Positions 3,488 through 10,161 of a DNA stretch of 10,549 nt are shown here, piece by piece. The notes below the pieces were generated by a model. The model ran no database searches, had not been told where the DNA came from, and saw nothing but the letters and a program-made list of their open reading frames with translations. This DNA is from Cytophagales bacterium (GTDB taxonomy: Bacteria > Bacteroidota > Bacteroidia > Cytophagales > Cyclobacteriaceae). The DNA lies in contig DNTA01000247.1 in the NCBI GenBank assembly GCA_003500135.1, forward strand, positions 1 through 10,549, given 5' to 3'. The stretch's first letter is position 1. Every line of letters begins with the position of its first letter. A program made the position numbers and the translations under genes.

Positions 3488-4678
3488 ATGCCAGGAACAG
3501 AATTATTCGGTGCAGAAGAGAAAAAAGAAGTGATGGATGTGCTGGAAACAGGCATCCTTTTTCGATATAATCATGATAATCTGAGAAACGGCCACTGGAA
3601 GGCTAAAACATTAGAAAAGGAGCTGGCACAGTTTTGCGGATCAAAATATGCCCATGCGGTATCCAGTGGATCAACTGCGGTAGCTACAGCTATGGCAGCT
3701 GCCGGAATTGGTGCTGGCGATGAGGTGATCGTCCCTCCTTTTACCTTCTTAGCTACTATAGAAGGAGCCCTTCTCGGCGGAGCGCTTCCTGTTTTTGCTG
3801 AAATAGATGAAACACTTTGTATCAGCCCGGAGGGTATTAAGGCAGCCATTACACCAAAAACGAAGGCGGTTGTACTCGTTCATATGCTGGGTGGAATGGC
3901 CCGCATTGACGAGATTGTTGATATTTGTAAGGAACACAATCTGATTTTGATAGAAGACACAGCTCAGGCATTAGGAGGCTCATTTAAAGGCAAAATGCTG
4001 GGGACCTTCGGTCAGGTTGGGTGCTTTTCATTCGATTTCTTTAAAATCATTACGGCAGGTGAAGGTGGTGCGCTGATCACCGATGACAAGCAGATCTACG
4101 ATAATGCCCACATGTTCTCAGACCACGGGCACGATCATATTGGTGATAACCGCGGCGCTGAACAACATCCTATCCTGGGTTTTAACTACCGTATTGGTGA
4201 ACTTAATGCCGCCGTAGGTCTGGCACAGCTTAGAAAAATTGAATATATCCTGGCAAGGCAACGTGCCAATAAAAAGAAGATCAAGGACATGTTGAAGCAG
4301 TTTCCGGAAATCACCTTCCGCAATCTGCCCGATGAAAATGGAGACACCGCCACTTTTCTCAATTTCTTCTTAAAAGATGAGGCAACCGCCAGACGCGTGC
4401 ATGAAGCGATGAGCGCTGCTTCACTAGGATCAGCTTATTGGTACGACAATAACTTCCACTATATCAAAAACTGGGACCACCTCAAGAATATGAATACGAT
4501 TGCCAAATTGCCAATCGAAATGATGGAAGCTCCTCAGGACTATAAAAACCTTAAGTTGCCAAAGTCTGATGAGGTACTAAGCAGAATGGTATGCTTCTTA
4601 ATAAAAGTGAACTGGACTGAGGAAGAGCTCGACAGCTATGTGGCAAAAATCGAACAAGTATTAAAAGAAGTGCTGTAA
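3488..4678 (+). CDS. kdnA: 8-amino-3,8-dideoxy-D-manno-octulosonate transaminase (KdnA)
   Basis: This is a PLP-dependent DegT/DnrJ/EryC1/StrS-type aminotransferase. SFDFFKIITAGEGG (181-194) holds the PLP-binding Lys186, and IEDTAQALGG (155-164) holds Asp157, which pairs with the pyridine nitrogen. SSGSTAVATAMAAAGIGAGDEVIVPPFTF (59-87) is the usual N-terminal cofactor-phosphate region. Its neighbour is an iron-type dehydrogenase of KdnB type, followed by KdsA. This identifies the pair that converts Kdo to 8-amino-Kdo: KdnB oxidises C8 to the aldehyde, and KdnA transfers an amino group, probably from glutamate. The reaction is cytosolic, before CMP activation and transfer into lipopolysaccharide. 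The length (396 aa) is normal. Without the context, any sugar aminotransferase of this fold would be possible. Confidence 0.85.
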   Translation: MPGTELFGAEEKKEVMDVLETGILFRYNHDNLRNGHWKAKTLEKELAQFCGSKYAHAVSSGSTAVATAMAAAGIGAGDEVIVPPFTFLATIEGALLGGALPVFAEIDETLCISPEGIKAAITPKTKAVVLVHMLGGMARIDEIVDICKEHNLILIEDTAQALGGSFKGKMLGTFGQVGCFSFDFFKIITAGEGGALITDDKQIYDNAHMFSDHGHDHIGDNRGAEQHPILGFNYRIGELNAAVGLAQLRKIEYILARQRANKKKIKDMLKQFPEITFRNLPDENGDTATFLNFFLKDEATARRVHEAMSAASLGSAYWYDNNFHYIKNWDHLKNMNTIAKLPIEMMEAPQDYKNLKLPKSDEVLSRMVCFLIKVNWTEEELDSYVAKIEQVLKEVL

Positions 4679-4703: not shown

Positions 4704-5783
4704 ATGTTTAAAAACTTTAAAAGTGTAACCAAAACGGCTTATGGAAGAGGTAGTTTCGATAAGCTTGATGAAATATTGGAAGAAAAGCGCCCTACTCCTG
4801 ATGCTTGTATGGTATTTCTGGTAGATGATGTTTTTCAAAGCAAACCAGGTGTAAAAGACCGAATCCCGGTGCGTGGCAATGATGTTCTTCTATGGATCAA
4901 TGTAGCTAAAGAACCTACAACAGAGCAGGTGGATAAAATCCGCGACGATGTGCTACGTGATAAAGGCCTGCCCGCAGGTATAATTGGTATCGGTGGCGGA
5001 AGCGTAATGGATTTAGCCAAAGCCACATCGCTTATGTTCACTAATGAAGGATCTTCTACCCTTTATCAGGGACTTAATCTGGTCAAAAAGCCTGGAATTT
5101 ACCACGTGGGTGTTCCTACTATTTCCGGTACCGGCGCTGAAGTGTCAATGACAGCTGTTTTGACAGGGCCCACAAAAAAACTGGGCCTTAAATGCGATTG
5201 GACCGTATTTGATCAAATCGTACTGGACCCCGACCTTTTGGACGGTGTCGATCGAAATCAGTGGTTTTACACAGGCATGGACTGTTACATACACTGTGTG
5301 GAATCAATGACGGGCACACAAAAGAACACCTTCAGTGAAGCCTATGGTTGGAAAGCCCTGGAATTATGTAAAGAGGTATTTCTCGATAGTGATAATGGGC
5401 GGTCAAAAGAAAACGAGGAAAAGCTAATGGTCGCTTCTTACATGGGAGGACTGAGCCTTACCTATTCAGAAGTGGGTGTTTGTCACGCCCTCTCCTATGG
5501 ATTGTCCAAAATTTTTGACATTCACCATGGTATAGCCAACTGCATAGCTTTCAATCAATTGAAAGATGTGTATGGTGATTTTGTGGATGAATTCCATACC
5601 ATGGTGGAAAAGCACAAGATCGATATCCCAAAAAACCTATCAGCCCAGTGGAATGAAGAAGATATTGATGCAATGGCAGAGGTAGCAATCAAACTGGAAC
5701 ATATGTGGAACCATGCATTCGGCGCCAATTGGAAAAAGGTGTTGGATAAGGACCGCATAAAGGGTTGGTATCGAAAAATGTAA
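4704..5783 (+). CDS. kdnB: 3-deoxy-D-manno-octulosonate 8-oxidase, iron-type alcohol dehydrogenase (KdnB)
   Basis: The protein is a group III (iron-dependent) alcohol dehydrogenase. GIGGGSVMDLAK (95-106) is the dinucleotide-binding loop and VPTISGTGAEVSM (137-149) the conserved second block. Asp193, His197, His261 and His275 lie at the metal-ligand positions (DCYIH, GVCHALSYG, IHHG). As KdnB it would oxidise the C8 hydroxyl of free Kdo to 8-oxo-Kdo for KdnA. The equilibrium should be unfavourable unless coupled, which agrees with its placement 25 bp after kdnA in one transcription unit. The length (359 aa) is close to the characterised enzyme. The assignment to Kdo rests on family resemblance plus the flanking kdnA and kdsA; the dehydrogenase class itself is certain. 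Confidence 0.87.
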   Translation: MFKNFKSVTKTAYGRGSFDKLDEILEEKRPTPDACMVFLVDDVFQSKPGVKDRIPVRGNDVLLWINVAKEPTTEQVDKIRDDVLRDKGLPAGIIGIGGGSVMDLAKATSLMFTNEGSSTLYQGLNLVKKPGIYHVGVPTISGTGAEVSMTAVLTGPTKKLGLKCDWTVFDQIVLDPDLLDGVDRNQWFYTGMDCYIHCVESMTGTQKNTFSEAYGWKALELCKEVFLDSDNGRSKENEEKLMVASYMGGLSLTYSEVGVCHALSYGLSKIFDIHHGIANCIAFNQLKDVYGDFVDEFHTMVEKHKIDIPKNLSAQWNEEDIDAMAEVAIKLEHMWNHAFGANWKKVLDKDRIKGWYRKM

Positions 5784-5792
5784 TTAAGATCA

Positions 5793-6623
5793 ATGGAAAA
5801 GAAAATAGTAAAAGTAGGTGATATTATTTGTGGAAGTGATGAGCTTTTTCTGATCTCCGGTCCATGCGTTATCGAAGAAGAATCGACCATGATGAAAACG
5901 GCCGAAATGCTAAAGGAGGTTTCGGAGCGCATGAATATCCCGGTCATATATAAATCATCATTTCAAAAAGACAACAGAAGCTCCGTGGAGTATTATACGG
6001 GCCCGGGGCTGGATGAAGGCCTGAAACTACTCCAAAAAGTAAAGGAACAATTTGGCTTCCCCATTCTTTCAGATGTACACTACCCCGATCAGGTGGATGC
6101 TTCAGCTGAGGTATTGGATGTAATTCAGATACCGGCTTATCTTGTAATGCAAACAACACTTGTTACCGCAGCAGCTAAAACAGGCAAGGTGGTAAACCTG
6201 AAGCACGGACAATTTCTGGCTCCTGAAAATATGGCAAAGCCTGCACAAAAATGTGTGGATAGTGGTAATGATCAGATCATTCTGACTGAACGCGGTTATA
6301 CGTTTGGATACAACGATCTGATTGTAGACCCCAGGAGTTTTTACCACATGCGACAAATTGGTTATCCTGTGGTTTTTGATATCACCCACTCCATTCGCAA
6401 ATACGGCATTCCTTCGGCTGACCCAAGTGGTGGCGCCAAGGAGTTTTTACCCACTTTATCAAGAGCAGGGGTGGCTGCGGGTGTTGATGGTGTGTTTATT
6501 GAAACACATCCAGAACCCGAAAAGGCCCTTTGCGATGCCGCCAGCCAACTTTGTGTTTACGATTTGGAGGAGTTTTTAAAACCCCTGATAGAAATTCATA
6601 ACTTAGAGGTTCAGTACCGATAA
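5793..6623 (+). CDS. kdsA: 3-deoxy-8-phosphooctulonate synthase (Kdo-8-phosphate synthase), class II metal-dependent type
   Basis: KdsA condenses phosphoenolpyruvate with D-arabinose 5-phosphate to give Kdo 8-phosphate in the cytosol. The TIM-barrel family blocks are present: SGPCVIE (22-28), KSSFQKDNRSS (54-64), SDVH (93-96), IQIPAYL (111-117), NLKHGQFLAP (135-144), TERGYTFGYNDLIVD (165-179) and FIETHPEPEKALCD (235-248). Cys25, His199, Glu237 and Asp248 match the four metal ligands of the metal-dependent class. Compared with remembered canonical enzymes, several usually conserved residues differ: DKAN is QKDN, RQTD is MQTT (Arg to Met119), and KK is KH at 137-138. These may mark a specialised subfamily. 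The gene follows kdnB by 9 bp and uses the first ATG; the length (276 aa) is normal. Confidence 0.88.
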   Translation: MEKKIVKVGDIICGSDELFLISGPCVIEEESTMMKTAEMLKEVSERMNIPVIYKSSFQKDNRSSVEYYTGPGLDEGLKLLQKVKEQFGFPILSDVHYPDQVDASAEVLDVIQIPAYLVMQTTLVTAAAKTGKVVNLKHGQFLAPENMAKPAQKCVDSGNDQIILTERGYTFGYNDLIVDPRSFYHMRQIGYPVVFDITHSIRKYGIPSADPSGGAKEFLPTLSRAGVAAGVDGVFIETHPEPEKALCDAASQLCVYDLEEFLKPLIEIHNLEVQYR

Positions 6624-6659: not shown

Positions 6660-7670
6660 ATGGAATTATATTTAGATTCTGCTGATTTAAACGAAATTGA
6701 AAAAGCCTTTGAAGTAGGTTTTTTGAATGGTCTTACGACCACCCCAACGTTCATGCATCGACATGGTGTGACCGATATTGATGCTCTAATACTCAAACTT
6801 GCCGACATTGTACCTGTGCTGCAGGTTGAAGCGTTGGGAGAAAATGCAGAAGATATCGTAAAGGAGGCCGACCGATTACTGGAACTGGGCCTGAGCAAAG
6901 AAAAAACCGTATTTAAAATACCGGTTTCAATGGAAGGTGTAAAAGCATGTAATGAACTTAGTAAAAAAGGCATCATGGTCAATGTGCACCTTGTGTATAC
7001 CTTACAGCAAGCCTACATGGCAATGCATGCCGGCGCCGCTTATGTGTGCCCGTTAGTTGGTCGACTTCAGGACCAGGGACATGATGCCCTGGGATTGGTG
7101 GAACAATGTGTGGATTCCGTAGACCGTTATGGTTACGGTTCAAAGATCATGTTCTCATCGGTCAGGCACCCTGAGCATGTGAGAAATGCCCTGAATATTG
7201 GTGTGCATACGATCACAGTGCCCTACAAGATCCTCAATATGCTGACCGAAAATAATTTCACAAAACTCGGCACAGAACAGTTCTTTGAGCATACGCGTCT
7301 CATGACGGTAAAAGTCAAAGATGCCATTAACACACACAATAATCCTATTGTTACTTATGATGACACCCTGGGCGAGGCCATATTCAAAATGACGCAATCC
7401 GGGTACGGGTGTGTTAGTGTTGTGGATAACAATGGTTCACTGGCTGGCGCTTTTACTGATGGTGACTTGCGAAGAATGATTGCCAATGGAGAAGGTAGTA
7501 TTGCCATGCAAAAGAAAATGTCGGAGATCAAGTACAACAAGCCAATAACAATCGAATCAACGGCTCTGCTGAACGATGCGAACACCCTTTTACATGAAAA
7601 AGGTGTGGACACTTTAATCGTTACGGAAAAGGATAAAGTGGTAGGTATTCTTGATATTCAGGATTTGTAG
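6660..7670 (+). CDS. Transaldolase/fructose-6-phosphate aldolase-like domain fused to a CBS pair, 336 aa
   Basis: Residues 1-215 are a small transaldolase-type TIM barrel of the fructose-6-phosphate aldolase group. LYLDSAD (3-9) carries Asp6, GLTTTPT (24-30) the TTNP-like loop, Gln55 lies in VLQVEA, FKIPVSMEG (85-93) carries the Schiff-base Lys86, and YVCPLVGRLQDQG (128-140) is the late barrel strand. Residues 228-336 are two CBS motifs with AFTDGDLRRM (264-273) and GILDIQDL at the end. These words are typical of arabinose-5-phosphate isomerase (KdsD), where a CBS pair follows an SIS domain. The SIS domain is absent here. Three catalytic positions differ from classical enzymes (Asn to Thr28, Thr to His110, Tyr to Leu132). 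The gene lies 36 bp after kdsA. A role in supplying or sensing arabinose 5-phosphate is inferred, not known. Confidence 0.85.
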   Translation: MELYLDSADLNEIEKAFEVGFLNGLTTTPTFMHRHGVTDIDALILKLADIVPVLQVEALGENAEDIVKEADRLLELGLSKEKTVFKIPVSMEGVKACNELSKKGIMVNVHLVYTLQQAYMAMHAGAAYVCPLVGRLQDQGHDALGLVEQCVDSVDRYGYGSKIMFSSVRHPEHVRNALNIGVHTITVPYKILNMLTENNFTKLGTEQFFEHTRLMTVKVKDAINTHNNPIVTYDDTLGEAIFKMTQSGYGCVSVVDNNGSLAGAFTDGDLRRMIANGEGSIAMQKKMSEIKYNKPITIESTALLNDANTLLHEKGVDTLIVTEKDKVVGILDIQDL

Positions 7671-7693
7671 TCAAAAACTTAATATTTAACTTG

Positions 7694-7728
7694 AAAACCA
7701 CCTTTTCCAAGGTGGTTTTTTTATTTTT
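7694..7728 (+). terminator. Strong intrinsic terminator between the transaldolase-CBS gene and kdsC
   Basis: AAAACCACCTT (7694-7704) pairs perfectly with AAGGTGGTTTT (7709-7719) around a TTCC loop, followed by a T-run with one A up to 7728. It starts 24 bases after the stop at 7670 and ends five bases before the kdsC ATG at 7734. It should end most transcripts of the upstream genes, or act as an attenuator in front of kdsC. Confidence 0.8.
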
Positions 7729-7733
7729 ACAAA

Positions 7734-8435
7734 ATGTTAAATCCAGAAAGAGTATTCCGCGATTTGGGCGGACAATTCGTAGCCAGCCCCCAACAATTGG
7801 TTGAAAAAATTTCAAAAATTAAAGTGTTTTTGTTCGATTGGGACGGCGTATTTAACGCCGGTTACAAAGGAGAAGGTGCAACAAGTTTATATTCAGAGAC
7901 CGACTCTATGGGAACCAACCTGATGCGTTTCGGCAAATATTTGCAGAACGGAAAAATCCCCTTCACCGCGATCATCACCGGCGAACAAAACGAAAGCGCT
8001 TTTAAACTGGCAAGAAGAGAACATTTTAATGCTGTCTTTTTCAAAGTTAAAAATAAAAGGCTTGCCCTTTCTTATCTTGGGAAAGTTCAGGGAATAAAGC
8101 CGGAAGAAGTGTGTTTTTTCTTTGATGATGTTCTCGATATGGCTATTGCCAAAGAGGTAGGGCTGAGGGTTATGATCCACCGAAATTCAAGTCCGTTATT
8201 CACCGGTTTTGTGCGTGAAAATCAATTTGCGGATTATATCACTGCCTATAGCGGTTCACAAAATGGGCTCCGGGAAGCTTCAGAAGTTATCATGTCCTTC
8301 TCCGAGGTCTTTGATCGCGCATTGGATGAACGCATTAATTATTCCGATAATTATCAGCAATACATTCACTTGCGCAATGCGCAATCAACCAGTTTCTTTA
8401 CGCAAGAGGACAATCAGATAATTGATCATTTATAA
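7734..8435 (+). CDS. kdsC: KdsC-like HAD-family phosphatase (probable Kdo-8-phosphate phosphatase), 233 aa
   Basis: This is a small, cap-less HAD hydrolase. FLFDWDGVFNAG (32-43) holds the nucleophile Asp35 and acid/base Asp37, AIITGE (79-84) holds Thr82, Lys108 is the phosphate-binding lysine, and FFFDDVLD (128-135) supplies Asp131/Asp132 for magnesium. NGLREASEVI (177-186) matches the closing helix of KdsC-type phosphatases. By context it removes phosphate from Kdo 8-phosphate, giving free Kdo for KdnB. It is larger than usual KdsC (about 180-190 aa), with about 20 extra residues at the N-terminus and 45 at the C-terminus. The usual ITGR and GDD words are ITGE and FDD. The ATG at 7734 directly follows a terminator, so the true start could be later; no other ATG precedes the nucleophile. 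Confidence 0.72.
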   Translation: MLNPERVFRDLGGQFVASPQQLVEKISKIKVFLFDWDGVFNAGYKGEGATSLYSETDSMGTNLMRFGKYLQNGKIPFTAIITGEQNESAFKLARREHFNAVFFKVKNKRLALSYLGKVQGIKPEEVCFFFDDVLDMAIAKEVGLRVMIHRNSSPLFTGFVRENQFADYITAYSGSQNGLREASEVIMSFSEVFDRALDERINYSDNYQQYIHLRNAQSTSFFTQEDNQIIDHL

Positions 8436-8453: not shown

Positions 8454-8492
8454 AAGAGCTCAAAAATAAAATTAGAGCTCTTCCCTTTTTTT
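8454..8492. terminator. Bidirectional terminator between kdsC and fhs
   Basis: AAGAGCTC (8454-8461) pairs with GAGCTCTT (8475-8482) around a 13-nt A-rich loop. On the plus strand it is followed by CCC and seven T (8486-8492); on the minus strand by TTTCTTAATTTT. It serves the two convergent genes, whose stops are 55 bp apart. The T-run overlaps the fhs stop codon. Confidence 0.7.
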
Positions 8493-10161
8493 ATGATAAT
8501 CCGGAAATAATCCCATGATCATCTATATCTATCCCCTCTGCCGCCGGAGTAGAAGGTAAACCCGGCATCCGTAGTATTGTGCCCGCAATTGGAATAAGAA
8601 AACCAGCGCCTGCAGCTATTTCAAATTCCCTGATATGAATGTCAAAATTCTCGGGCCTGCCAAGTAACTTTTCATCATCGGAAAGCGACTTTTGCGTTTT
8701 GGCGATGCAAATTGGCAAATCGCCAAATCCTAATTCTTCAAATCGCTTAAGTTGCCGCTTGGCTTTATTCGAAAAAATGACATATTGGGCTCCATAAACT
8801 GTTCGGCAGACTTTCTCAATCTTCTCACGTACGCTGTCTTCCAAATTATAGGTTGGCTTGAAGGTTGATTCACAGGACTCTGCTGCATTCATTACTTCCC
8901 TGGCCAGATCCAGTGTACCTTCACTACCTTTGGCAAAACCCTCACTCACTACAAAAGGTACATTGCAGTCCACACAAGCTGTTTTCAAAGCTTCAATTTC
9001 GGCATCCGTATCGGAATGAAAACGATTGATGCAAACCACGGCTGGTAAACCAAAGCTATTAATCGTTTCAACGTGCTTTCTTAAATTTTCCTTGCCTTGA
9101 ACCACAGCTTCCACATCTTCCTGTGTCAATTCTTTCAATGCTTTACCACCATGATATTTCAATGCTCTTATGGTAGCCACTATGACAACCGCCTTAGGGG
9201 AAATACCGGCATACCGGCATTTGATATTAAAGAATTTCTCAGCCCCCAAATCTGCGCCAAAACCGGCTTCTGTAACCACATAATCTGCCAGTGACATGCC
9301 CATTTTTGTAGCAATGATACTATTGGTCCCCTGGGCAATATTGGCAAACGGCCCTCCATGAATGATTGCCGGGGTTGCTTCAAGGGTCTGAACAAGATTA
9401 GGTTTTATTGCATCTTTCATTAATGACGTCATTGCACCCTCGGCCTTAATATCACGTGCAAAGATCGGTTGATTGTCAAAAGTATCACCTACATAAATAT
9501 TACCAAATTTTTCCTTCAGGTCTGCTATGTTTTTACTGATACAAAGTATCGCCATCACTTCGGAAGCTGCTGTAATATTAAATCCGGTTTCCATAGGTAT
9601 ACCACCTGATTTGCCACCCAGGGCTGTTATTACTTTACGCAAAGCACGGTCATTCATATCCATGCAGCGTTTCCACAAAATTGTTCTTGGGTCGATGCCC
9701 AGACTTCTGTTTTTGCTTTGCACATTATTATCAATCAGTGCAGCAAGCAGGTTATTGGCTTTTTCTATTGCTGAAAAATCGCCGGTAAAATGAAGGTTGA
9801 TGTCTTCCATTGGAACTACCTGGGCATAACCACCTCCTGCAGCTCCTCCTTTGATACCAAATACAGGTCCCAGTGAAGGCTCCCGCAGTACAACTGTCGT
9901 TTTTTTATTGAGCTTTGATAATCCATCAGCCAACCCGATGGATGTTGTGGTTTTCCCTTCACCGGCTGGTGTGGGAGTAATGGCGGTTACCAATATTAAA
10001 TTACTCTCATTTACCTTATTGTCATCGATCAAATCAAGGGGCAGTTTCGACTTGAATTTGCCGTAGAGATCCATATCAGCAGGTTTCAAGCCCAATTTGG
10101 CTCCTATTTCATCAATATGTTTCAGCTTTGTTGCCTGTGCAATTTGTATATCGGTCAGCAT
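8491..10161 (-). CDS. fhs: Formate-tetrahydrofolate ligase (10-formyltetrahydrofolate synthetase)
   Basis: The enzyme joins formate to tetrahydrofolate with ATP, giving 10-formyl-THF for purine and formyl-Met-tRNA synthesis or running in reverse to release formate; it is a cytosolic homotetramer. The diagnostic ATP loop TPAGEGKTTT (64-73) is followed by LREPSLGPVFGIKGGAAGGGYAQ and the EDINLHFTGD block. The C-terminal part has the family-typical EIAAGAGFLIPIAGTILRMPGLP stretch and the closing DIDDHGIISGLS. The full length (556 aa) is normal and the reading frame is intact. The start is the ATG at 10161, before TDIQIAQ, the usual N-terminal type. The gene is alone on the minus strand: no folD or purine gene is adjacent, and it has no evident link with the sugar cluster. 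Confidence 0.95.
   Translation of the reverse strand: MLTDIQIAQATKLKHIDEIGAKLGLKPADMDLYGKFKSKLPLDLIDDNKVNESNLILVTAITPTPAGEGKTTTSIGLADGLSKLNKKTTVVLREPSLGPVFGIKGGAAGGGYAQVVPMEDINLHFTGDFSAIEKANNLLAALIDNNVQSKNRSLGIDPRTILWKRCMDMNDRALRKVITALGGKSGGIPMETGFNITAASEVMAILCISKNIADLKEKFGNIYVGDTFDNQPIFARDIKAEGAMTSLMKDAIKPNLVQTLEATPAIIHGGPFANIAQGTNSIIATKMGMSLADYVVTEAGFGADLGAEKFFNIKCRYAGISPKAVVIVATIRALKYHGGKALKELTQEDVEAVVQGKENLRKHVETINSFGLPAVVCINRFHSDTDAEIEALKTACVDCNVPFVVSEGFAKGSEGTLDLAREVMNAAESCESTFKPTYNLEDSVREKIEKVCRTVYGAQYVIFSNKAKRQLKRFEELGFGDLPICIAKTQKSLSDDEKLLGRPENFDIHIREFEIAAGAGFLIPIAGTILRMPGLPSTPAAEGIDIDDHGIISGLS

Follow-up and report, generated by a model that had tools for sequence, protein, structure and literature searches.

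A transaldolase-like barrel fused to a KdsD-type CBS pair is a proposed source of D-arabinose 5-phosphate for Kdo synthesis in Bacteroidota

Results

The fusion gene lies directly after kdsA

The stretch of DNA analyzed here (the window; 10,549 nucleotides, from contig DNTA01000247.1 of the Cytophagales assembly GCA_003500135.1) carries a cluster of genes for the synthesis of 3-deoxy-D-manno-octulosonic acid (Kdo). One gene of this cluster encodes a transaldolase-like barrel joined to a pair of CBS domains, hereafter the fusion. Kdo synthesis is both a textbook pathway and a target for antibacterials, and the usual teaching assigns its first step to a SIS-type isomerase, KdsD. The architecture of the fusion, its conservation, its linkage to Kdo genes and its near exclusion with KdsD suggest that it is probably a catalytically active, feedback-regulated supplier of D-arabinose 5-phosphate (A5P) to KdsA, and a non-orthologous replacement of KdsD. 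The features of the cluster are as follows.

3488..4678, + strand: kdnA, 8-amino-Kdo (Kdo8N) transaminase (match to PDB 5k8b, 522.3 bits)
4704..5783, + strand: kdnB, Kdo 8-oxidase (match to PDB 5k8c, 421.9 bits)
5793..6623, + strand: kdsA of a variant clade (KDNRS; M119 for A. aeolicus R106; R202 for Q188)
6660..7670, + strand: TAL_FSA-CBS fusion, 336 residues, ATG start, proposed D-arabinose-5-phosphate-supplying enzyme
6660..7289, + strand: transaldolase/fructose-6-phosphate aldolase barrel, fusion residues 1–210 (kept: D6, E57, K86, N108, R135, S167, R169; switched: T28, H110, Y113, C130, L132, Q137)
6915..6917, + strand: codon of the Schiff-base Lys86 (position from the open reading frame, lysine by alignment)
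7296..7667, + strand: CBS pair of the arabinose-5-phosphate-isomerase type, fusion residues 213–336
7693..7720, + strand: intrinsic-terminator-like hairpin directly 3' of the fusion
7734..8435, + strand: long KdsC-like phosphatase of the haloacid dehalogenase (HAD) type, 233 residues, conserved next gene

The genes kdnA, kdnB and kdsA, the fusion and the KdsC-like HAD gene all lie on the plus strand of the window. The gap between kdsA and the fusion is 36 bp, in agreement with an initial annotation that placed the fusion directly after kdsA. As in the Shewanella KdnA/KdnB pathway for Kdo8N, both kdn genes are present, and they are clearly related to 5k8b and 5k8c.

The fusion combines an aldolase-type barrel with a KdsD-type CBS pair

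In a Pfam scan, residues 3–202 of the fusion match TAL_FSA (PF00923) at 129.6 bits, with a gathering score of 27 bits, and two stretches match CBS at 60.7 bits. These matches, together with the alignment of Lys86, bear out the initial description of a barrel resembling fructose-6-phosphate aldolase (FSA) joined to a CBS pair. Relative to the FSA and small transaldolase family (TalC/MipB; PF00923, TIGR00875), the fusion adds the CBS pair and scores under the cut-off of TIGR00875, its best NCBIfam match (166.8 bits, cut-off 246); it is 33–38% identical to 24 Bacteroidota transaldolases. The KpsF/KdsD model TIGR00393 aligns only with the CBS part (model positions 153–267), at 66.1 bits against a cut-off of 203.7. 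The fusion thus resembles KdsD/GutQ/KpsF in its CBS pair, by sequence, motif and fold, and in the proposed supply of A5P to KdsA, but it has no SIS domain and its catalytic barrel is unrelated. The initial annotation suggested a database search for the same two-domain architecture, and such proteins were found: the best 120 of 4013 homologues share TAL plus CBS, with at least 65% identity over the whole length. The architecture is therefore not a product of chance, and a chance fusion or artefact is ruled out. A structure model of the full-length protein is weak at residues 1–40 (block means 50–68).

Two samples of genomes were compared. The phylum sample consisted of 395 genomes drawn from Bacteroidota and searched for the fusion and for KpsF/KdsD; the fusion was called from a full-length match with E below 1e-130, and the match that ranks next (1e-42) covers the barrel only. 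The second sample was the best 80 of 546 candidate fusion loci from a scan of a species collection, and because the best-scoring loci were kept, it leans to close relatives. One genome belongs to both samples (G430 and G146, which agree in coordinates and scores).

The CBS pair is of the KdsD type. Its closest sequence matches are CBS pairs of arabinose-5-phosphate isomerases (4o9k, 1.6e-13), and the top three entries of a fold search with the pair were 3k2v, 3fna and 4o9k; we take the ligand of 4o9k to be CMP-Kdo. Among the proteins inspected, the motif TDGD(L/I/V)RR occurs in 13 of 14 fusions, 23 of 23 KdsD proteins and none of 5 other CBS proteins. It is frequent within the fusion family without being invariant (111/120 listed proteins, 73/80 loci). 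Two words had been singled out initially as characteristic of the CBS pair of KdsD, and both are present, FTDGDLRR at residues 265–272 and GILDIQDL at the C-terminus. This holds for the first, which is common to both families, but not for the second: the DIQDL-like end is typical of the fusion, while KdsD mostly ends in HLHDL or HIHDL.

The catalytic residues are kept and the donor site is rebuilt

The KIP motif that contains Lys86 can be aligned with transaldolases of solved structure. The site expected of PF00923, consisting of the Schiff-base Lys86, Asp6, Asn108 and the phosphate-binding Arg and Ser residues, is invariant in 120/120 listed proteins and 80/80 loci, two sets that may overlap, and so are all the other kept and switched positions listed above. 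For comparison we used 24 canonical Bacteroidota transaldolases, which are the best-matching loci of the barrel search in the phylum sample and not a random draw. The fusion shares D6, K86, N108, R135, S167 and R169 with them, and E57 with 22 of the 24. Its T28, H110, Y113, C130, L132 and Q137 stand where all 24 have N, T, F, S, F and D. In FSA numbering, the functional pocket of FSA and transaldolases is N28, T109, S/A129 and F/Y131; the canonical rows read N, T, S, F in 24/24, whereas every fusion row reads T, H, C, L. According to passages of one study, the catalytic water of E. coli FSA is held by Gln59, Thr109 and Tyr131, and the dihydroxyacetone donor is stabilized by Asn28 and Ala129 (PMC13259622). 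Because the phosphate and Schiff-base sites are kept while the donor and water sites are rebuilt, we infer that the fusion is catalytically active but uses a different donor or carries out a different reaction, being neither a plain transaldolase nor a dead sensor.

The fusion is linked to Kdo genes in general

We fetched at most 8 kb on each side of the 80 fusion loci. The HAD gene is near the fusion in 68 loci (median start 1031 after the fusion start) and KdsA in 63 (median 886 before); KdnA and KdnB are found in 31, KdsB in 28 and WaaA in 12. The initial annotation had proposed to tabulate how often kdsA, kdnA and kdnB are neighbors; the linkage to kdsA, the HAD gene, kdsB and waaA is strong. 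At least one of HAD, KdsA, KdnA, KdnB, KdsB and WaaA is present in 71/80 loci, or in 65/80 if HAD is left uncounted. The KdsB representative was named by TIGR00466 (212.8 vs 155.2 bits) and that of WaaA by PF04413 (159 vs 23.9). Clustering of open reading frames revealed no other linked family in more than 13 of the 80 loci. Around 13 KdsD loci of relatives, the listed top KpsF matches, no KdsA, KdsB or fusion-type HAD was found within about 7 kb a side; the probes were the variant KdsA and the fusion-type HAD, so a canonical KdsC could be missed. At E <= 1, the same 13 loci gave only three weak KdnB/KdsB matches.

A KdnB match (E <= 1e-60) occurs in 48/55 fusion genomes vs 9/23 non-fusion relatives (odds 10.7, p 3e-5). 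Kdo8N is associated with the fusion but not required for it, and the link is to Kdo in general. A tie to Kdo8N only is ruled out by the 7/55 fusion genomes without a KdnB match and the nine non-fusion relatives with one. In this respect the fusion departs from the Shewanella Kdo8N pathway, and the initial description of an 8-amino-Kdo cluster fits the window, where kdnA and kdnB are present, but not the wider linkage of the fusion.

The conserved next gene encodes a KdsC-like HAD protein with the motif FDWDGVFN that scores far under the KdsC cut-offs. Three fusion genomes (G000, G091, G292) have no KdsC-model match over the cut-off, and since this is so, the HAD protein may be a second rebuilt step of the pathway. 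The non-fusion genome G249, which carries the same HAD, likewise has no such match.

The fusion and KdsD rarely occur together

In the phylum sample, the fusion is present in 6/395 genomes and KpsF/KdsD is over its cut-off in 277/395, with none of the six fusion genomes among them (one-sided Fisher 6.5e-4). KpsF status was read from best E-values; the list of genomes under the cut-off numbers 118, consistent with the tally of 277. KdsA is present in all six fusion genomes. Within the families that contain fusions (f1, f3, f5, f17; 50 genomes, strata counted by hand), 43 of the 44 non-fusion members carry KdsD (exact product over families 9.5e-6), and the lone member without it, G066, has a KdsA-model match of only 138 bits, far under the cut-off of 314. 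All 80 fusion genomes of the second sample were tested for KdsD, 50 chosen for long flanks and then the remaining 30, and in 73 of them KdsD is not over the cut-off. In the window's own genome (94% complete), SIS matches are confined to one 616-residue frame, which resembles GlmS in its length and its double domain. The initial annotation named a normal kdsD in this genome and in most fusion genomes as one half of what would refute its idea; this was not found in the own genome, in 6/6 genomes of the phylum sample or in 73/80 of the second. That KdsD was merely missed through assembly gaps is possible for one metagenome-assembled genome, but hardly for 73/80 plus 6/6.

The 80 loci, the best of 546 candidates, are spread over several orders of Bacteroidota. 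Three fusion contigs (L068, L081, L112) are in bins labelled Deltaproteobacteria or Azovibrio and are probably misbinned Bacteroidota.

The KdsA beside the fusion belongs to a variant clade

The KdsA of the window exceeds the cut-off of the KDO8P synthase model TIGR01362 (336 vs 314 bits) but belongs to a separate clade, an observation that goes beyond the initial annotation. D60, which changes KANRS to KDNRS, and M119 occur in 78/78 rows of the variant clade (69 distinct sequences; in five rows a gene was fetched for a second time, and two of the 63 kdsA loci are left out, as their pieces fell short of the 1e-40 cut-off) and in 0/35 canonical rows, all of which have A60 and R119. M119 aligns with R106 of A. 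aeolicus KdsA, which we take to bind the phosphate of A5P; 1t8x has Gly there, and the passages of KdsA papers that we examined do not state a role for Arg106. The variant therefore departs from the canonical A5P site (KANRS plus Arg106, A. aeolicus). In addition, Arg202 replaces Gln (A. aeolicus Q188), and there is an insertion at 206. By its GPC cysteine, the window KdsA is presumably of the metal-dependent type. In a 64-row tree, the 28 fusion-genome rows used and G249 are separated from the other rows by a branch of length 1.03 with 100/100 support; possible long-branch effects are flagged among the canonical rows.

All fusion genomes with an aligned KdsA carry the variant. Three genomes with both the fusion and KdsD (G399, G400, G415) have two KdsA proteins each, one of either type, and in G399 KdsD is the neighbor of the canonical KdsA, and the fusion that of the variant. 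G405 and G441 have one KdsA each, of the variant type. Chryseolinea serpens DSM 24574 (G415; L066, L119, L173) carries both systems, KdsD with canonical KdsA and the fusion with variant KdsA.

A natural swap of the fusion for KdsD

The single-contig genome G249 has no fusion; its best barrel match (1.1e-37) covers residues 1–212 only. Its gene row reads kdnA-kdnB-kdsA-HAD-kdsB (L205, 9144–14103), with a spacing of 91 bp between kdsA and HAD. The sole KdsA is of the variant type, and KdsD lies about 2.1 Mb away in contig coordinates. In the tree, the KdsA of G249 is the sister (100/99) of the KdsA of G190, a genome that carries the fusion but lacks KdsD. The simplest reading of an operon without the fusion and a KdsD elsewhere is that the fusion and KdsD are interchangeable, so that the fusion would make A5P and the variant KdsA would be able to use it.

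Discussion

The initial suggestion that the fusion stands in for SIS-type KdsD gains support from the KdsD exclusion, the linkage to kdsA, HAD, kdsB and waaA, and the G249 swap, while its product is a prediction. In the mechanism we propose, Lys86 would form the Schiff base and Arg135, Ser167 and Arg169 would hold the phosphorylated substrate. T28, H110, C130 and L132 would abolish the pocket that accommodates the hydroxymethyl arm of dihydroxyacetone and would build the acid-base site anew. In the favored reaction, glycolaldehyde would be aldol-added to D-glyceraldehyde 3-phosphate (G3P), and transaldolase stereochemistry would then give A5P. This route, which we prefer because it agrees with the retained D6, E57 and N108 and with the stereochemistry, takes the larger share of our overall proposal, although judged by itself it falls a little short of being probable. 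According to two reports, FSA makes A5P from glycolaldehyde and G3P, both in vitro and in engineered E. coli cells (PMC6298115, PMC9947464), and the chemistry envisaged in the initial annotation is to that extent feasible. The title of PDB entry 3upb describes a transaldolase in covalent complex with A5P. The KdsD-type CBS pair would sense an end product, for which a CMP-Kdo-like nucleotide sugar is the likeliest candidate.

Several observations pull against this proposal. KdsD is over the cut-off in 7/80 fusion genomes of the second sample (4/50 and 3/30), and another, G441, is just under it (193 vs 203.7 bits); in G399, as noted, KdsD adjoins a canonical kdsA. No Kdo gene was found in the fetched stretch of 9/80 loci (four of the nine stretches are shorter than 10 kb), and no kdsA in that of 17/80; KdsA was present elsewhere in 10/10 of the latter genomes tested (an eleventh genome in this test, G430, already had KdsA adjacent). 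Among the 118 phylum-sample genomes without KdsD over the cut-off, 17 have KdsA over its cut-off (13/80 and 4/38). Six of these are the fusion genomes, and six have sub-cut-off KpsF matches of 1e-44 to 1e-52 (G230, G238, G347, G351, G279, G378). The remaining five (G200, G272, G023, G303, G358) have neither fusion nor KpsF; gaps are the likely explanation, since family mates of each carry KdsD. On the chemical side, free glycolaldehyde is scarce in cells, and clustering of open reading frames from the 80 loci found no linked gene for its supply. The pocket changes that would suit a smaller donor would also fit a pentose-phosphate imine. T30 occurs in the transaldolases of T. maritima and T. 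acidophilum in our alignment and is not special to the fusion; S30T has been engineered into FSA to improve the use of G3P. Because two positions of the usual A5P site differ, the acceptor of the variant KdsA could also differ from A5P.

The missing glycolaldehyde source keeps in play a second route to the same product, in which Lys86 would form an imine with ribulose 5-phosphate or ribose 5-phosphate and His110 would move the proton, making the fusion an isomerase or C2-epimerase. Pdx1/PdxS offers a precedent for pentose-phosphate isomerization at a lysine imine. A swap of the G249 type with an isomerase would require no new substrate. We nevertheless consider this minor share of the proposal unlikely: Asp6, Glu57 and Asn108 of the aldol machinery are invariant, transaldolase stereochemistry already gives A5P, and we know of no isomerase of transaldolase fold. 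The water site speaks for the imine route: of the three water-holding residues reported for FSA, two (Thr109, Tyr131; PMC13259622) have given way to His and Leu throughout the aligned rows. Alternatively, a different aldehyde or product might be handed over in a complex to a KdsA specialized for it through D60, M119 and R202, as part of a parallel Kdo front end that bypasses free A5P. The long, fully supported KdsA branch, the strict division between D60 plus M119 and A60 plus R119, and the three genomes with both KdsA types, in one of which each lies beside its own candidate A5P source, are consistent with such a system. It is nonetheless improbable in our judgment. G249 has the variant KdsA alone with KdsD as its only recognized A5P source, Q188 to R202 may compensate for the lost R106, and the variant is over the TIGR01362 cut-off.

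Still less probable is that A5P comes from a side activity of GlmS and that the fusion only regulates flux or performs other sugar-phosphate chemistry. GlmS is a further possible source because eukaryotic GFATs, which are GlmS relatives, have A5P isomerase activity and complement an E. coli A5P-isomerase mutant, but loss of both KdsD and GutQ makes E. coli auxotrophic for A5P, both according to one paper (PMC11301363). The double-SIS frame of the window's own genome, GlmS-like by length, is in keeping with this source, and the invariant catalytic residues of the barrel argue against it. The E. coli auxotroph has its own GlmS, and because GlmS is widespread, it leaves the lack of KdsD specific to fusion genomes unexplained. 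We reject the idea of an ordinary transaldolase or fructose-6-phosphate aldolase lying by chance beside kdsA. The barrel does have the family fold, but the window's own genome contains a second transaldolase match, and five other fusion genomes (G091, G146, G190, G292, G385) each contain two or three matches to the barrel. The active-site positions are switched in all aligned rows, the score is under the TIGR00875 cut-off, and chance placement would explain neither the linkage to Kdo genes nor the exclusion with KdsD.

More speculatively, the cluster could be a complete, separately evolved Kdo front end, in which the fusion, as a transaldolase-fold enzyme that has captured a KdsD-type regulatory domain, would make the acceptor, the rebuilt KdsA (D60/M119/R202) would take it and the long KdsC-like HAD would finish; this would use either glycolaldehyde and G3P or an acceptor other than free A5P passed between partners. 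Among the open-access titles that our searches found, none names such a fusion or a KdsD-less or transaldolase-based A5P supply in Kdo synthesis. For a known pathway step, many Bacteroidota appear to have replaced KdsD by an uncharacterized enzyme, an unrelated transaldolase-like barrel with a similar regulatory domain. If true, this would be a second, unrelated solution to the first Kdo step, filling a gap in many genome annotations, and one type of regulatory domain would sit on two unrelated enzymes of the same step. The glycolaldehyde and G3P reaction of synthetic biologists may then exist in nature, in what would be, to our knowledge, the first natural pathway built on it.

Other features of the window

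The hairpin at 7693–7720, between the fusion and the HAD gene, has 12 pairs (-14.6 kcal/mol, z -3.6). Because it is terminator-like and directly follows the fusion, transcription of its operon may end with the fusion; the window scan gave 6 terminator-like sites in total vs 4.8 in shuffles, which is near chance. Beyond the HAD gene, a gene on the minus strand (8491–10161) faces the cluster. From its sequence we take it to be formate-tetrahydrofolate ligase-like, and it is near the fusion in 3/80 loci (L065, L089, L094).
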